From Desulfobacterales bacterium (GTDB lineage: Bacteria; Desulfobacterota; Desulfobacteria; Desulfobacterales; JAFDCJ01), in the NCBI GenBank assembly GCA_020345785.1, contig CP070771.1, positions 4,655,470 to 4,661,230 of the forward strand: DNA of 5,761 nucleotides, in the 5' to 3' direction. Below are positions 1 through 5,760 of this stretch, in pieces. The first letter of the stretch is position 1. Every line of letters begins with the position of its first letter. The notes beneath the pieces were generated by a model that worked only from the letters and a program-made list of their open reading frames with translations, made no database searches and was not told the DNA's origin. Position numbers and translations under genes: made by a program.

Positions 1-215
1 TTTTTGACCAATGCAGCGACGGCCGCCGCCACCGCAGGGTGGGTGCAAACCGCCTGTTCGGGTCTGGCTTCGCGCAGCAAATTGACCTTGAGCACAATCT
101 TTTCGCCCTGCTTCGCAAATCGTCCCATGCCGCCCATCAGATCTATCAGGGATCTAATCTTATCATCGGTTTCAGCGTAATCCTTGCATTGAACAATATA
201 GACTTTATTGTCCAT
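1..215 (-). CDS. DUF362 domain-containing protein, N-terminal 71 codons (truncated by window edge)
   Basis: The minus strand is open from an ATG at 215 to the left edge, giving 71 codons and two further bases. The visible protein starts MDNKVYIVQCKDY. It contains a KVNLL segment at residues 43-47 and a PEQAVCTHP segment at 52-60, followed by an Ala/Val-rich helix. This K-x-N-L-L ... THP arrangement is what I recognise from the start of DUF362 proteins (PF04015). Many of these also carry 4Fe-4S ferredoxin-type segments further on, which would lie outside the window. The biochemical role of the family is not established. I chose the ATG at 215 because GGTGA lies five bases upstream. An in-frame ATG at 227 would add four residues (MVNT) but has no visible ribosome binding site. 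The gene is separated from the amidase gene by over 700 bases and is probably transcribed independently. Family assignment is fairly secure; function is unknown. Confidence 0.75.
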   Translation of the reverse strand, partial: MDNKVYIVQCKDYAETDDKIRSLIDLMGGMGRFAKQGEKIVLKVNLLREARPEQAVCTHPAVAAAVAALVK

Positions 216-345
216 GGTATTCACCATTGCCGTAAAAAGTTTTGAAAATCAGAAAATTGACAACAGCATCTCATGCTAAAATTTAAAACTTTGTCCTGCT
301 GGCCAGGTCATAGATAATAGGCTTTGCCGTGATTGAATGCAACGG

Positions 346-496
346 GGTATTGGAATAATGGAAGGTTGGAATACTGGGTTTGGCGGAATGATATCTGGTT
401 TTTTACGGATGGCCGTGATCAACAAATAAAATAAGACCCCCATCCGCTCTTGATCCCCAACATTCCATTTTTCCAGTATTCCATTATTCCATAGGT
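346..496. repeat. Inverted pair of octamer-phased repeat arms with nested core stem
   Basis: The right arm (465-496) is four consecutive 8-base units that each begin CCA, three of them ending TT, such as CCAGTATT (473-480) and CCATTATT (481-488). The left arm (346-377), read on the minus strand, is also four consecutive 8-base units beginning CCA, again including CCAGTATT (370-377) and CCATTATT (354-361). The arms share a perfect 13-base complement (351-363 with 479-491) and a perfect 10-base one (368-377 with 473-482). The core between them carries a further complementary pair, CGGATGG (406-412) and CCATCCG (440-446), nested inside the arms. The whole could fold into a long interrupted hairpin in DNA or RNA. 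It contains no gene and no transposase. The phasing and inversion are directly visible; any mobility or function is inference. Confidence 0.8.
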
Positions 497-504
497 TAAT
501 AGAC

Positions 505-528
505 AGCAAAAACCACCCCTCTGGGGTG
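505..528 (-). terminator. Candidate rho-independent terminator, possibly for the amidase transcript
   Basis: On the minus strand CACCCC, loop AGA, GGGGTG forms a perfect 6-bp GC-rich hairpin (514-528), followed directly by GGTTTTTGC. The shape is right for an intrinsic terminator reading leftwards. However, it lies about 410 bases past the amidase stop codon, the loop is tight and the T-run is only five bases, so it may be a fallback terminator or a chance structure. It would insulate the DUF362 gene from upstream transcription. Confidence 0.4.
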
Positions 529-668
529 AATCTAAAGCCTGATCCTTTGGGTATGATTCTCTTTTATGCCACAAAGTGGAATATGTGTCAATCCGGGGTA
601 GATGAAGATCCAAGGGAATGTCAAATTAAATTATAAGCCGGCTGCATCAGAAGGTTTTATGAAACATT

Positions 669-889
669 AAAATTCCAAATCTCAAGCATCAAATTACAAA
701 AAAATCTCAAATTACAATATTCAATGACCAAAACGTCCACTATGGTTGTATCGCATCGCTTTGCAAACCCCAGTCTGCCGGTGATGATGCCATTGGTACA
801 ACAGTTGATATATCATATCATCTGTTTGGAATTTTGAATTTGGGACATTGGGATTTGTTTGAGATTTGATTTTTGGTGCTTGAAATTTT
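669..889. repeat. Inverted pair of heptamer-phased CAA-word arms around a nested core
   Basis: The left arm consists of 7-base units beginning CAA: four in phase (676-703), a 4-base slip ATCT (704-707), then four more (708-735). Read on the minus strand, the right arm has the same plan: four CAA heptamers (882 down to 855), a 4-base slip ATCC (854-851), then CAATGTC (850-844) and three looser words to 826. Both arms also begin AAAATT at their outer ends. AAATCTCAAA (702-711) is perfectly complementary to 858-867. The roughly 90-base core is less repetitive and carries nested pairs: GTTGTA (745-750) with TACAAC (797-802) and GCATC (753-757) with GATGC (786-790). It is a structured intergenic repeat, not a coding region. 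I recall similar CCAAAT-type words recurring in intergenic regions of Desulfobacterota genomes, but cannot verify that here. Confidence 0.8.
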
Positions 890-938
890 CACGATCCACA
901 TCGGCCAGTAGATTTTATGATATCATTCTATCTCCTGC

Positions 939-2372
939 CTAAATGACCGAATCTCCTGCCAACTTTGGCCGCTGTTTCCAGAATTCAGTGGCTTGTTCAA
1001 AAGCATACGCCAACTGGAGTACACTGAAGTCGGCATTGTGCCTTCCGACGATTTGCATGCCCACCGGCAGCCCCTCCGGCGTAAATCCGCAGGGCACCGA
1101 AATGGCCGGCAGGCCGGTGACGGTGATGTAATAGCAGCTTTTCATCCAGTCGATATAGCTTTCCATTTTGACACCGTTGATCTCTTCGATCCAGCGCTGA
1201 TGGATATCAAACGGCGGCACCTGATTAACCGGACAAATCAAATAGTCATAGGTTTCCAAAAATTGCCGCACCCGTTGGTAGAGTTCGGTGCGTCTGACCT
1301 CGGCCCTGCCGATCTGCGGCCCGGTGAGCTTCTGGCCCTGTTCGACGTTCCAGATGACGGTATCTTTAATCAGCTTGCGGTGGTCTTTCAGCAGTTCGGA
1401 ATATTGCAGCTCAAAATTCCAGGCCCGCCACACCTTGAATATTTCATCGGCATCGCTTAAATCCGGCTGGGCTTCTTCCACGATGCAACCCAGATCATCG
1501 AATACCCGGCGCCCGTTTTCCAGCACCTGCGTCACCCGCGGGTCCACCGGCAATTCCCCCAGATCTTTGCTCCAGGCGATCTTCACATTTTTAAAATCGC
1601 GCTCGAGCGGGCGTGTGAACAGGCTTCCGGGTTCGGCAATCGCAATGGGGCTGCGCGGGTCCGGACCGGCGATGGTACTTAACATCAAGGCCACGTCCTG
1701 CACGGTGCGGGCCATTGGTCCTTGTACGGATATGGGAAACCAGGCCACCATTCTCGGCCAGACCGGAACCCTACCCGGAGAAGTTCGGAATCCGACGATA
1801 TTGCAGAAGTTGCCCGGATTGCGCAGCGAGCCTCCCATGTCACTGCCGTCGGCCAACGGGAGCATACCGCAAGCCAGGGATACGGCCGCTCCGCCGCTGC
1901 TGCCGCCGCAGGTTTTGGTGGTGTCGTAAGGATTCAGCGTTTCTCCGAAGACCTGATTGAACGTCTGAGAACCGGCTCCGAATTCGGGTGTGTTGGTCTT
2001 GCCGATGGTAAGGGCGCCGGCCTTTTTAAGCCGCTCCACGATTAAGGCGTCATGATCCGGGACAAAGTCTTTGTATATGGGCGAGCCCCAAGTGGTGCGC
2101 ATATCTTTGGTCGGAAACAGATCCTTGTGTGCAATGGGAAGGCCATGCAGCGGTCCGATTTCCTTATCCTGCGCCAGGGCTTTATCCGCGGCATCGGCCA
2201 GGGCCACTGCCTGCTGGGAGGGTAGGCGGGTGACGATGGCATTGACCACCGGGTTCACGCGTTCGATTTGATTCAAGTGGGCTTCCATCACCTCGCGGCA
2301 AGACAATTCTCTACGCCGGATTCGTTGAACCATTTCCGTTGCCGTCATGAAACAAATTTCAGAATTTGACAT
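939..2372 (-). CDS. Amidase-signature (AS) family amidohydrolase
   Basis: The 477-residue protein is a complete amidase-signature enzyme (PF01425), normal in length for the family (about 450-550). These enzymes hydrolyse carboxamide bonds with a Ser-cisSer-Lys triad. Visible elements are GLPIAHKDLF with the catalytic Lys83, the GGSSGG loop with cis-Ser158, and GSDMGGSLRNP with nucleophile Ser182. The 24-residue Ser158-Ser182 spacing matches fatty acid amide hydrolase. The C-terminal segment GLPAISVPCGF...GLPVGMQIVG is also typical. No signal peptide or membrane segment is evident, so it is probably cytoplasmic. It is unlikely to be the tRNA amidotransferase subunit GatA, since no GatB or GatC gene is nearby and the Ser loop has a general-amidase look. 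The ATG at 2372 is favoured over an in-frame ATG at residue 9 because AGGAG lies five bases upstream. The substrate is unknown. The C45 hydrolase gene lies 364 bases upstream and may share a transcript. Confidence 0.93.
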   Translation of the reverse strand: MSNSEICFMTATEMVQRIRRRELSCREVMEAHLNQIERVNPVVNAIVTRLPSQQAVALADAADKALAQDKEIGPLHGLPIAHKDLFPTKDMRTTWGSPIYKDFVPDHDALIVERLKKAGALTIGKTNTPEFGAGSQTFNQVFGETLNPYDTTKTCGGSSGGAAVSLACGMLPLADGSDMGGSLRNPGNFCNIVGFRTSPGRVPVWPRMVAWFPISVQGPMARTVQDVALMLSTIAGPDPRSPIAIAEPGSLFTRPLERDFKNVKIAWSKDLGELPVDPRVTQVLENGRRVFDDLGCIVEEAQPDLSDADEIFKVWRAWNFELQYSELLKDHRKLIKDTVIWNVEQGQKLTGPQIGRAEVRRTELYQRVRQFLETYDYLICPVNQVPPFDIHQRWIEEINGVKMESYIDWMKSCYYITVTGLPAISVPCGFTPEGLPVGMQIVGRHNADFSVLQLAYAFEQATEFWKQRPKLAGDSVI

Positions 2373-2382
2373 AAGTTCTCCT
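2373..2382 (-). promoter_or_regulatory. Ribosome binding site of the amidase gene
   Basis: AGGAG (minus strand, 2382-2378) stands five bases before the ATG. This is near-ideal spacing and decides the start against the internal Met9. Confidence 0.8.
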
Positions 2383-2392
2383 AATTTCTCCG

Positions 2393-2416
2393 CCCTGAAA
2401 AATTGATCATTCAGGG
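2393..2416. other. Hairpin in the amidase leader
   Basis: CCCTGAA (2393-2399) and TTCAGGG (2410-2416) form a perfect 7-bp stem with a 10-base loop, ending 11 bases upstream of the amidase Shine-Dalgarno sequence on the minus strand. In the gene direction it has no T-run, so it is not a terminator for that strand. It might affect translation or message stability. On the plus strand it is followed by TTTTG, but no plus-strand gene ends there. Confidence 0.35.
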
Positions 2417-2630
2417 TTTTGAATTGTTTTTAATGAAGTGAAGATAGTCGCCAGATCGAAGGTCCGGCGGATAAATTACCTAATGCTGCGCATTTTTTCT
2501 TTAGCTGAGCTTTGATTATCTCATAAATAATTTTAGTAGAAAAAGGCCAAGCCATATTAAATTTGCCCTTTCTTTAACATGGTATACCAAATCCATCTCA
2601 AATAAATGTAGTGTGCCTTTTGTTTTATAC

Positions 2631-2744
2631 GCCTTTACCCTTTGTCCTTCACATTTGCTATCAGCTATGAGCTATGAGCTATCTCCTGGTGCAATAGTGC
2701 CACCGCCTTAAACCCTAAACCTTATATCTTCACCATTCACCACC
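2631..2744. repeat. Successive heptamer word runs ending inside the C45 stop region
   Basis: Four different 7-base words occur one after another in short runs: CCTTT-type words (units at 2631, 2638, 2645), GCTATGA-type (2657, 2664, 2671, 2678), CCTTAAA-type (2706, 2713, 2720) and CACCATT-type (2731, 2738). The last run overlaps the final codons and stop of the C45 gene (stop at 2737-2739). Unlike the other gap elements, no inverted partner arm is visible within the window. Confidence 0.6.
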
Positions 2745-3825
2745 CCAACTCCAGTGTCTGAACATCTCCCCGGCAGGGATTGCCGAGGGTATAGTGAATT
2801 TGCCGCCGACTGAGATTCATGATGATGGATAGACAGGTGACAATCTGCAGCAGCGGCGCCACTGCTGGATTCCGATGGGTACAGACGGAAAATGGTTTGT
2901 CCATGTGATCTTTGAGAATATTCTGAATCCCCTGAACATCGATGTCGCGCTTTAATTCTGTCAAACGCTTCTGGACTCGGCGGCAGCGAAGATAGGTCGA
3001 CGGGTAAGGATCCCGCAGGGGTTTGAGGTCCCGGAAATTTTTGCCCGGCTTAAGATAGTGATTCGTATGGACGCAGATGCCGTTTTCAGGCCACAGCACA
3101 TGTTCCTCCACCGGCGAGGTTTCCAGGTTGACGGCTTCACCTTCTGCATATCCGATGAGAAAATTGATGGAATGGGCTCTGCCGGTGTTCAACACATACC
3201 CCAGGGCCTGGGCCAGATAGGATGACTCCAGAATACGCCGGGTGAGAAAGATCCAGGGCACCCCTGCACGGGGCTGGTCGGAAGTCAGATTGTTGACCAC
3301 CAGGCCGACGCCGGCGGCGTTCATGCCGATCTTGGCAAGCTGCCCGGCCTCGGTAAAGGTTATCAGGGCCGGCTTCCCCTCGCGCGGCCCGATCTTAAGA
3401 ATCACCTGGCAGTTTACCACCTCACGATACCAGTCCCAGTTCTGAGCCAGCAGCATGTCGTCGTTTCGGGTGACTTCGGGCAGGGCGGCAATCGCGGTGC
3501 ATTCCTGGGCCAGGACCTGCGGGTTAAAAAGGATCTCCGAACGGGCATTCAAAAGGAATATGTCCTCAAATGCACGTCCGGCGCCTTCTGCAATTCCCTG
3601 GATTTCCTCCACAAGATCCGGGGCAAAGGCTTTGGCCTTGAGAAGGAACGGCGCGCCCCTCTCGACGGTTTCTTCCCATGTCTCTCCCGTGGTGCGATGG
3701 AAAATTTCACGGTAGGCCGCAATAATCGTCTCGATCCTCTCTCTGGCAGCTTCACCATATGCGCGTCCTCGTTTTTTCGGATCCGCCTCATTCAGTTCAA
3801 TAACAGGAATGGATTCAATGGTCAT
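2737..3825 (-). CDS. C45-family autoproteolytic acyltransferase/hydrolase (Ntn-hydrolase)
   Basis: The 362-residue protein matches peptidase family C45 (PF03417), the family of fungal acyl-CoA:6-aminopenicillanic acid acyltransferase. Members are made as a proenzyme and cleave themselves so that a Cys becomes the N-terminal nucleophile. The likely nucleophile is Cys109 in QECTAIA. Cleavage there would give chains of about 108 and 254 residues, close to the two chains of the fungal enzyme. Other family landmarks are the Arg/Gly-rich start RGRAYGEAARERI (19-31), the helix EIQGIAEGAG (74-83), NARSE (93-97), QNWDW (128-132) and the closing IHYTLGNPC...LEL segment. The residue before the nucleophile is Glu, not the Gly of the fungal enzyme. 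No signal peptide is visible. Bacterial homologues mostly have unknown substrates, so penicillin chemistry should not be assumed. A ribosome binding site supports the start. The amidase gene follows. Confidence 0.88.
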   Translation of the reverse strand: MTIESIPVIELNEADPKKRGRAYGEAARERIETIIAAYREIFHRTTGETWEETVERGAPFLLKAKAFAPDLVEEIQGIAEGAGRAFEDIFLLNARSEILFNPQVLAQECTAIAALPEVTRNDDMLLAQNWDWYREVVNCQVILKIGPREGKPALITFTEAGQLAKIGMNAAGVGLVVNNLTSDQPRAGVPWIFLTRRILESSYLAQALGYVLNTGRAHSINFLIGYAEGEAVNLETSPVEEHVLWPENGICVHTNHYLKPGKNFRDLKPLRDPYPSTYLRCRRVQKRLTELKRDIDVQGIQNILKDHMDKPFSVCTHRNPAVAPLLQIVTCLSIIMNLSRRQIHYTLGNPCRGDVQTLELGW

Positions 3826-3841
3826 CTGAACCTTTTCTCCT
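3826..3841 (-). promoter_or_regulatory. Ribosome binding site of the C45 gene
   Basis: Upstream of the ATG at 3825 the minus strand has AGGAG (3841-3837) and, closer in, AAGG (3834-3831) five bases from the start. The nearer AAGG has the better spacing; both support this start. Confidence 0.65.
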
Positions 3842-3890
3842 ATGGATACGATTTGTTGAATCTTCGTATGATTTCAGATTTTTTCAAATT

Positions 3891-4029
3891 GGACACGGAT
3901 AAACACGGATAGCACAGATGAATTTTCGCGGTTCAGGATAAAAGAATTACCACTAAACTCCGCCCGGGCGAGACCCCCTGTACCTTTGAATGCTTTCAAA
4001 TCCGTTAAGATCTGTCTAAATCTGTGTCC
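3891..4029. repeat. Inverted pair of decamer-phased ACRGAT arms with nested stems
   Basis: The left arm is three 10-base units (3891, 3901, 3911), the first two ending ACACGGAT and the third carrying ACAGAT one base out of step. The right arm, read on the minus strand, is also three 10-base units (4029-4020, 4019-4010, 4009-4000), each ending ACAGAT or ACGGAT. Both arms open with GGACAC at their outer end. The core has GGTTCAGG (3930-3937) facing CCTGTACC (3977-3984) with one mismatch, a perfect palindrome CGCCCGGGCG (3961-3970), and a hairpin TTTGAA-TGCT-TTCAAA (3985-4000). Words of the ACACGGATNA type are familiar to me from intergenic regions of environmental bacterial genomes, though I cannot check that here. 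No coding capacity. Confidence 0.82.
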
Positions 4030-4290: not shown

Positions 4291-5760
4291 CTACCACCGC
4301 CACCACCATCTTTTCCTATATATAGTTTGATACAAGTCATTCTTATATATGGTTTGATATAAGTCATAAACACGCACGCTTTTTGAATTAGCACGGGCAA
4401 TACTATTGTCAGTCCTTACCTGTAAAATAAAACTAAATTCGTTACCTCTATTGATAAGCTCTTGAACAACATACTCTGGCAGAAATAGGCACCCCATGTG
4501 GGTGGGTACGTTTGGCCATACTAAAAGTTTAAGATCATCATTTTCATATGCCCCGATTCCGGCTCTAATCGATGTGCTATAGTTCTCGGCTATGCTAAGT
4601 AGCTCCCTCGGAATATCCCACATCCAATATATATTACCATCCTGATCAGAGTGAATCTGAAACGTATCAGATGAAATTACAGGAAGCTTTAGAAGAAAGT
4701 CGAACTCGATTGGTTTTTCGTGCGTTATGCCATCTTTGGTCGTAACTTCTAATTTATAAGTGCCGATGACCAATGGATCTAAGATATCAGCGTCAAACTC
4801 GCTAAGAGATAAGGTATCATAATAGGTCCATGAAGCAGCGCTGCGATCAAAACGAGCCCCTTTATAATCATACTCTTCGAAAGTAACAGATGATAAGTTA
4901 ACAACATTTTCAGCCGGATCAATTAGCTTAACGTTGGTCACAACACTACCGTCAGTAAGATAGTCGCCATTGGCATCCTGCATATCAAAGGCCAACACAT
5001 TTATCGTTTTAGTGCATTCATACTTTATGGGTTCATACACTCTGTGCTGGATTGACACCCATCCCAATTGGTATCCCTCCCCCACATCGGGCTTGCACTT
5101 CCCTTCACTGCCTGCAGAATAGATCGCTTGGATTTCTGAAGCGCTTAGGGCGTGATCGTAAATTTCGACTTCGTCAAGGAGACCATCAAGAGATTCGTCG
5201 GATGACCCGAATCCGACCCAAGGTGCGGGACCCAATACTCCGCTTACCTCAAGGCTCCCAACTTCCAAACCATCCAAATACAATCGCATAAAGCTACCAT
5301 CGTAGGTTCCAGCCACATGCTGGAAGACACCCTCTTGCAAAACTTCGTTAACACGAATATGATGCAGATCACCATTAATGGTCATATAGAAATGAAGTTG
5401 TCGCGGCCCGTTTTCTCCATCATAGCGTATTACAGCTTTATCAGCCAGTGTCACATATCGCTGAATCCGGCTAGAAGGTAATAAATTATGCATCACCCAA
5501 GCATCAATTGTTAACGCCTGCAAATTCTCGATGTCCGTTCCAGAAGTCGCCACCAGATCATCTTCACCATCAAAACTAAATGCCCCATCAACCATGCCCT
5601 CTGCAAATGTTGCACCATTTATAAGGTCTCCATTATTTGTACCAATGATATCACGCGCGTTTCCATCACCCGGCCACCAACTTACCAGACCAGGTGGTGG
5701 GTCGAGACAATCCGCGTTACTCTGTGAACCAACAAAAAAGATAGAAACTAAAATTAATGC
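4291..5760 (-). CDS. Secreted LamG-domain protein (N-terminus beyond window; C-terminus possibly frameshifted)
   Basis: The frame is open from the right edge to TAG at 4291-4293, giving at least 489 residues; the first in-frame ATG in view (5595) is internal. The visible start ALILVSIFFVGSQSNADC is the hydrophobic core and cleavage region (after SNA) of a signal peptide, so the protein is exported. Visible residues about 18-222 form a LamG/concanavalin-like jellyroll (PF13385 type): PPPGLVSWWPGDGNA, AFSFDG, LTIDAWV, VAGTYDGSFMRLYLDG and DGLLDEVEIYDHALSASEIQAIY. Cys18 and Cys222 bracket the domain and could form a disulfide. The remaining part looks beta-rich and Ig-like, but I do not recognise it. 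The tail repeats DLYQTIY twice and ends RKRWWWRW. LamG domains commonly bind glycans or surface polymers; the ligand here is unknown. Base composition looks lower in GC than the amidase gene. A terminator follows; the promoter is out of view. Confidence 0.87.
   Translation of the reverse strand, partial: ALILVSIFFVGSQSNADCLDPPPGLVSWWPGDGNARDIIGTNNGDLINGATFAEGMVDGAFSFDGEDDLVATSGTDIENLQALTIDAWVMHNLLPSSRIQRYVTLADKAVIRYDGENGPRQLHFYMTINGDLHHIRVNEVLQEGVFQHVAGTYDGSFMRLYLDGLEVGSLEVSGVLGPAPWVGFGSSDESLDGLLDEVEIYDHALSASEIQAIYSAGSEGKCKPDVGEGYQLGWVSIQHRVYEPIKYECTKTINVLAFDMQDANGDYLTDGSVVTNVKLIDPAENVVNLSSVTFEEYDYKGARFDRSAASWTYYDTLSLSEFDADILDPLVIGTYKLEVTTKDGITHEKPIEFDFLLKLPVISSDTFQIHSDQDGNIYWMWDIPRELLSIAENYSTSIRAGIGAYENDDLKLLVWPNVPTHMGCLFLPEYVVQELINRGNEFSFILQVRTDNSIARANSKSVRVYDLYQTIYKNDLYQTIYRKRWWWRW
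4312..4365 (-). repeat. 27-base in-frame tandem duplication in the LamG gene 3' end
   Basis: Two adjacent 9-codon units (4365-4339 and 4338-4312) encode DLYQTIYKN and DLYQTIYRK. They differ at four of 27 bases, two of them silent. The duplication abuts an AAAA run (4314-4311) after which the reading frame looks shifted. Confidence 0.85.

Follow-up and report, generated by a model that had tools for sequence, protein, structure and literature searches.

Three inverted elements lie in the intergenic gaps of a 5,761-b stretch from the genome of a sulfate-reducer-like member of the Desulfobacterales (contig CP070771.1; the whole stretch is referred to as the window), and each of them belongs to a repeat family with dispersed copies and is not a local invention. 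They share one plan, in which arms of short phased words stand inverted around a core, and the corresponding families are termed F1 (element 1), F2 (element 2) and F3 (element 3). On balance, we lean towards reading the elements as copies of three separate intergenic palindromic repeat families, similar to miniature inverted-repeat transposable elements (MITEs) or to REPINs, the inverted doublets of repetitive extragenic palindromic (REP) sequences, that spread within and between genomes of the Desulfobacterota. In F1 the words of opposing arms match while the spacers between them mismatch beyond chance, which suggests that the bumpy hairpin itself matters; this signal is demonstrated for F1 only. 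An earlier note on this DNA had described the three elements and their common plan, and both were borne out when arms and cores were located by sequence reading, Tandem Repeats Finder (TRF) and an inverted-repeat search. Overall, its observation was partly confirmed and its interpretation partly supported, as detailed below.

A search with the acyltransferase encoded in the window returned 17 loci in named genomes, two of which were close: a Desulfosarcina sp. metagenome-assembled genome (MAG; locus L001, genome G001) and the Olavius-associated Delta 1 symbiont (L002, G002), with acyltransferases 86% and 85% identical to that of the window at the amino acid level. Counting overlapping matches inside one array separately, the F1 word triplet (one mismatch) matched 125 times in G002 and 26 times in G001 (reversed control 0), the F2 pattern TTTGGTGCTTG 98 and 15 times (reversed control 2 and 4), and the F3 word triplet (two mismatches) 9 and 8 times (reversed control 0). 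In an even sample of 297 genomes of the phylum, to which G002 belonged, occurrence was patchy, with F1 in 27, F2 in 21 and F3 in 24 genomes, while the reversed F2 and F3 patterns matched in none and the reversed F1 pattern in one. The families shared genomes more often than expected (F1 and F2 in 13 vs 1.9, p = 1.6e-10; F2 and F3 in 8 vs 1.7, p = 5.6e-5; F1 and F3 in 10 vs 2.2, p = 6.0e-6), which is suggestive only because the kinship of the surveyed genomes was not given. Genomes with all three words include G002, G095, G124, G177, G201 and G224. The F1 pattern also occurred in 4 of 246 genomes of the phylum to which a Phycisphaerae MAG (L015) belongs.

The cores had been called unique in the earlier note, which is wrong within the lineage of the window, because F2 cores and outer flanks could be aligned among many lineage copies (19 and 20 copies aligned; at least 74 F2 places in G002, read in part) and F1 cores and flanks are likewise conserved there. 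In this lineage elements 1 and 2 have conserved flanks beyond their arms, a correction to the same note. Between genomes the cores are mostly unrelated: by reading, other Desulfobacterota genomes retained the arms with mostly different cores, and blastn sorted 71 F1 cores measuring 30 b or more into 47 clusters, the three largest of which (9, 7 and 4 members) were confined to the lineage of the window, G001 and G002.

The F1 word unit is TGGAAT plus two free bases, the spacer. The parser yielded 81 distinct F1 elements with 2-7 words in each arm, of which 31 belong to the window lineage and 50 to other genomes. One overlapping element at L130 and repeat copies of one place were left out before counting. 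In a count of 421 F1 words, 315 were exactly TGGAAT at a parser threshold of at least five of six bases. Neighbouring arms no more than 260 b apart faced inward in 81 cases, with four right-right and two left-left pairs. Because some loci had been chosen as paired, the count was repeated on unpicked loci, where 54 of 59 pairs were inward and 3 + 2 had the same direction; the inverted pairing assumed in the earlier note is thus far above chance in F1. If the arms had been copied from one another, or if pairing were favoured, opposing free bases should match. They matched less often than permuted (0.299 vs 0.427 ± 0.025 in the 50 elements outside the lineage), and none of 5000 permutations of right arms among elements was as low. 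The outer register gave 0.343 vs 0.421 (p = 0.0012, 50 elements), while registers shifted by -2, -1, +1 or +2 words gave nothing significant; the first 27 elements from other genomes had p = 0.0055 for the inner and p = 0.14 for the outer register. Permutation within genomes, which left eight lone elements unpermuted (among them L288, L291, L292 and L295, with no genome assigned), gave 0.420 ± 0.024 with 0/5000 as low, and all nine genomes with at least three elements were lower. Without the loci picked for pairing, identity was 0.302 vs 0.431 (0/5000, 39 elements). Watson-Crick pairs were depleted at both spacer bases; the first base showed about as much enrichment of A.C as of G.T, and the second was enriched in A.A and T.T. 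The mismatch excess lay in the first three words counted from the loop. None of the 81 elements had a stretch of 16 or more nt paired without interruption (4.0 expected, p = 0.015). An initial whole-arm alignment had given lower similarity within than between F1 elements; it was replaced by these spacer-only tests because differences in arm length affect it.

These results also bear on how the arms arose. The earlier note had proposed independent convergence, with local word slippage followed by template switching at a hairpin separately in each gap, and the phased words and inverted arms of the window agree with such a process. Slippage should produce neighbouring words that are alike and template switching should produce matching arms, yet F1 showed no excess of the first and a significant deficit of the second, so that both expectations are contradicted. 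Adjacent-word likeness was at or below the permuted level in the lineage (2/78, p = 0.01 for fewer, and 7/81) as well as in other genomes (15/133 and 16/129), opposing spacers were anti-matched, and the same words recur across the phylum. Arrays with identical spacers, like plain tandem repeats, dominated in the planctomycetes G424 and G335, where they made up nearly all F1-pattern matches among those listed, and in the sole match of G049. The adjacent-word and cross-arm spacer tests contradict this process for F1, and for the elements in general it is scarcely credible.

The arms could instead be arrays of duplex sites to which a nucleoid or regulatory protein binds, with inversion and mismatch as by-products. 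Geobacter metallireducens belongs, like these hosts, to the former Deltaproteobacteria. Its multicopy elements carry four heptanucleotides in tandem, together with putative IHF/HU sites that are mostly paired (PMC2700814). They lend such arrays some plausibility, as does a six-base F1 word that is constrained beside free spacers. A mismatch across the axis that is specific to register is not what binding-site arrays predict, nor is the predominance of inward F1 pairs, and we regard them as very improbable.

We read F1 as a hairpin that resembles a ladder and whose spacers stay open; most likely it is a palindrome that is mobilised in trans and works in the manner of bulged REP sequences. The strand would function when folded, as a ladder in which the words form short helices with unpaired spacers between them; a trans-acting factor would recognise words plus loops, and perfectly paired copies would not be used or not be kept. 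F1, F2 and F3 would be the same type of device with different words, and by analogy we think that all three act like folded-DNA substrates. In E. coli, two conserved mismatches of REP form a bulge that TnpA_REP needs; activity is lost when a regular stem is restored, and cleavage persists with those substitutions tested that leave these bases unpaired (PMC8266576). An instability filter against perfect hairpins, or avoidance of long helices at the RNA level, could also be the source of the F1 signal. We infer mobility from dispersal, patchiness and one presence/absence case; the mobile-like behaviour suggested in the earlier note is thus upheld by dispersed copies, patchy distribution across the phylum and the absence of element 1 from the corresponding gap of the Olavius symbiont. 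A bolder proposal, which we hold tentatively and consider doubtful, is that such ladder hairpins constitute an undescribed class of mobile DNA, with several families of unrelated words in one genome, each laid out as two inverted arrays of short recognition words between which the spacers have to remain unpaired, whose folded single strands are read by one shared recombinase system and whose cores are free cargo space.

The same note had named REP elements and REP-associated tyrosine transposases (RAYTs) as a possible driver. On this view the elements would be REPINs that depend for their movement on a Y1 tyrosine transposase whose gene lies at another place in the genome. Y1_Tnp is matched 9 and 16 times in the two relatives, 18 of 19 word-rich genomes have matches as well, and E. 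coli REP needs a mismatch bulge (PMC8266576). A target-site duplication of F1 was not detected, the longest common substring of the 14-b flanks being at the permuted level (2.93 vs 3.11 in other genomes, n = 27; 3.35 vs 3.29 in the lineage, n = 31), which is in keeping with such a transposase; erosion of a duplication is possible. However, Y1_Tnp was nearly as common in word-negative genomes (14/19 vs 18/19, p = 0.18), the F2-rich genome G137 was without a match, 0 of 25 Y1_Tnp loci in G001 and G002 carried F1 or F2 by the models of these families, and only 1 of 43 loci in word-bearing genomes had an exact word up to about 1.5 kb away, against roughly 1.5 such loci expected by density, a comparison of low power. 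Altogether 55 Y1 loci were inspected (25/25 in the relatives and 30 of about 270 in the survey), a coverage with which single-copy linkage could be missed. The tetranucleotide GTAG, the only one scanned, occurs 16 times in the window vs 19 expected and adjoins none of the three elements, its nearest occurrences lying 107, 19 and 23 b outside the arms of elements 1, 2 and 3, respectively, and no shared tetranucleotide was seen by eye in 27 F1 flank pairs. Because no GTAG adjoins the window elements and Y1 genes are not enriched, F1-F3 were not classed as REPINs; the RAYT driver found no positive support, and we judge it distinctly unlikely.

Several known systems resemble these families in part. 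REPINs and REP-containing mosaic elements (BIMEs) are short intergenic inverted repeats around a spacer, with many copies and predicted hairpins (PMC3116915), and an unpaired stem bulge is important in the E. coli type (PMC8266576). F1 and F2 likewise form inverted intergenic doublets in high copy number, F3 less clearly so, whereas F1 arms consist of 2-7 repeated words with many mismatch loops and REP of one stem with one bulge. BrickBuilt, a MITE of Porphyromonas gingivalis, is also intergenic with inverted ends and internal short tandem units (PMC4596501), but its 23-nt units stand head to tail between small inverted ends, while the repeat units of F1-F3 form the inverted arms. Compared with MITEs of DDE insertion sequences, terminal inverted repeats are present, though as word arrays, and no target-site duplication was detected in the 14-b flanks of F1. 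The TAACTGA heptamers of Beggiatoaceae are short phased intergenic words whose distribution suggests horizontal transfer with no evident mechanism (PMC4679880); in contrast to the inverted arms of F1-F3 they are direct repeats (169 sets and one indirect in one genome), mostly right upstream of starts. The Geobacter metallireducens elements are multicopy, intergenic and word-like, but their reported word is GGGACCG, and neither an inverted double-arm plan nor spacer mismatch is described in the text compared (PMC2700814). No description of the F1-F3 words or of their plan was found in the open-licence literature searched, where among sequence strings only the 11-mer ttggtgcttgg matched, in animal papers by title, probably as primers or by chance.

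The gene context, taken from crude ORF calls, bears on another explanation. For F1, 34 of 58 loci lay between tandem genes, 9 were divergent, 2 convergent, 6 in an ORF and 7 at locus edges; for F2 the 39 loci comprised 31 tandem, 4 convergent and 1 divergent, with 2 in an ORF and 1 at an edge (F2 matches that scored less than 60 bits, and duplicate loci listed by hand, were left out). Such placement, mostly between co-directional genes, would suit elements that act as RNA, that is, transcribed hairpins in mRNA processing, stability or attenuation with mismatches that keep helices too short for double-strand-specific RNases, and uninterrupted pairing of less than 16 nt in all 81 F1 elements agrees with this. 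Against it, background gaps of at least 150 b were mostly tandem too (122/181), G.T, which pairs in RNA, was enriched as much as A.C at the first F1 spacer base (mild evidence), covariation in F2 was slight, F1 spacers departed in the opposite direction from compensatory change, and the window had no Rfam match at gathering score. We consider a role at the RNA level unlikely.

A number of observations weigh against the reading of F1-F3 as mobile palindromic families. No enzyme has been linked to them, precise excision or insertion was not seen, and plasmids were without a match to elements 1 and 2, the two covered by that search. Carriage by phages was rejected: the F2 word matched 62 times in 61 stretches of viral contigs, but four matches had an inverted partner at z > 5 and two of these four were F2-like by eye; four viral F1 stretches were found. 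The co-occurrence statistics ignore kinship between genomes, the single presence/absence case (element 1 vs L002) could be a gain or a loss, with junctions that MAFFT did not settle, and the reversed F1 pattern matched 8 times in G163, the one genome of 297 in which it occurred. Within F1, 51 of 159 arms had no inward partner by the parser (108 had one), and the spacer signal was absent at the fourth word from the loop. Arm covariation in F2 was slight, with 2 of 21 consensus pairs compensatory in 20 aligned copies (consensus energy -1.03). F3 arms were often not paired inward (24 left-right, 10 left-left, 6 right-right and 5 right-left, in a set of 45 pairs that includes some loci picked for pairing), F3 spacers gave 0.290 vs 0.380 in the outer register (p = 0.09) and 0.371 vs 0.362 in the inner (p = 0.59; 24 elements), and the variable A/G within F3 words leaned to matching (0.600 vs 0.481, p = 0.058). 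The reversed-F1 matches of G163 are probably another array of its own.

If the three families share one device, mismatch excess is expected in F2, F3 and other word arrays as well. Repeat families of this size shape the intergenic space in some genomes of a large phylum. Anti-matched spacers are a sign, readable from sequence alone, of a hairpin that is formed and acted on in the cell with perfect pairing disfavoured. Any genome can be searched for this sign, which could lead to a recombinase or RNA-processing system that has gone unrecognised.

Table 1. Features of the window, with the inverted elements listed before the genes.
Feature	Position	Strand	Basis
F1 copy with lineage-conserved flanks	288..551	.	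13-seed alignment; limits by eye
F1 left arm: words TGGAATNN, period 8, TGGGT at end	351..377	+	inverted-repeat search, word parser
F1 core	378..464	.	71 cores clustered by blastn
F1 right arm: words TTCCANNA inverted	465..491	-	inverted-repeat search; TRF period 8 at 462-492
F2 copy, full lineage homology	609..952	.	nhmmer 288 bits, window among 11 seeds; 19-copy flank alignment
F2 left arm: CAAAT/CAAG/CAATGACC words	~669..733	+	sequence, alignment
F2 core, ~90 b, itself hairpin-capable, alignable in many lineage copies	734..823	.	
F2 right arm: TTTGGAATTTTG..GGTGCTTG	~824..889	-	sequence, alignment
F3 left arm GGACACGGATAAACACGGATAGCACAGATG, period 10	~3891..3920	+	TRF 3893-3911; word parser
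F3 core, 78 b	3921..3998	.	sequence
F3 right arm, words inverted, CTGTGTCC at end	~3999..4029	-	TRF 3998-4025; word parser
DUF362-like protein, gene start	3-227	-	match below Pfam cut-off
Amidase	939-2372	-	
Acyl-CoA:6-APA acyltransferase-like protein	2737-3825	-	
LamG-domain protein	4291-5760	-	

The positions of the elements are given in Table 1. Word lengths of 8, 7 and 10 had been reported in the earlier note; periods of 8 and 10 hold for elements 1 and 3, while element 2 is only loosely 7-periodic (TRF: 7 nt x2.7, 11 nt x1.9). The arms of element 1 are 81% complementary with 87 b between them, and its RNA fold is better than dinucleotide shuffles (z -3.46, 0/200 as good). Its flanks are common to L110, L111, L120 and L135 in the alignment of 13 F1 seeds, and in the blastn clustering its core groups with six more F1 cores, all from copies in the G001/G002 lineage; the nhmmer span of 270-588, obtained with the window among the seeds, mirrors the seed only. 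Element 1 has no counterpart in the gap of L002, which is aligned to window positions 1-258 (88%) and to the amidase gene region: BLAST joins window positions 258 and 534 to overlapping ends in L002, and the window gap is about 289 b longer but otherwise collinear. This comparison rests on BLAST coordinates and reading because MAFFT misplaced the L002 flank. Either an insertion on the side of the window lineage or a deletion on that of L002 could account for the difference.

Element 2 also folds better than dinucleotide shuffles (z -3.47, 0/100 as good), and the 21 consensus pairs of F2 fall in short blocks. The non-seed copies L083, L046 and L070 match almost the whole F2 model in nhmmer, and L002 carries an F2 ortholog at the site of element 2, with a diverged core and 70.6% identity over window positions 612-887. 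One F2 arm pair in G002 (L414) is separated by 3.7 kb with ORFs between the arms. Furthermore, eight F2 copies of G002 (L053, L059, L075, L083, L096, L102, L103 and L104) contain a 38-b palindrome (CCCTTCGAC..GTCGAACC), which in L096 and L104 is longer and present twice over, at a fixed word position after ATTTA/ATTTG (AATTA in L096) and before ATTTG (ATCTG in L059). By regex count it lies in the A arm of two copies and the B arm of six, which may reflect either insertion at a specific site within a word or descent combined with an exchange of arms.

The fold of element 3 was no better than shuffles (z -1.25, 20/200 as good), and this element is supported by its family instead. L001 and L002 had no similarity to the gap of element 3 beyond the gene start, and adjacent F3 spacers were identical in 1 of 27 cases. 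Extra word families (GCAAAGGCGCAAAG, ATTCCGACTTCCGC, CACGAAAGCACGAAAG and GGATCAACAGGATC) stand beside or within the F3-like loci L139, L141, L146 and L069 of G001/G002.

All four genes of the window are on the minus strand. The gap at 2373-2736 holds another palindromic repeat and a 7-nt word array. Directly upstream of the amidase, at 2382-2478 (tail to about 2493), lies a MITE-like repeat with imperfect ends TAATTTCTCCGCC...GGCGGATAAATTA; its relatives, judged by eye in an alignment of 22 sequences, mostly have TAATTAATCCGCC...GGCGGATTAATTA and a tail of TTTATGCTGCGCAT, and they occupy at least 30 or so places each in G299 and G002 among the matches listed. The word array, GCTATGA/GCTATCA at 2657-2683 (TRF 3.9 copies), is one-armed, and this stretch matches one place each in G299 and G300. 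Word arrays besides F1-F3 include CACGAAAG, GCAAAGGC, GGATTAACA and GCTATGA. A second amidase in the Olavius symbiont (G002:C952; L210, L230) has 82% DNA identity to that of the window, and the last codons of the LamG-domain gene comprise two 27-b tandem copies (4313-4367, 89% matches).

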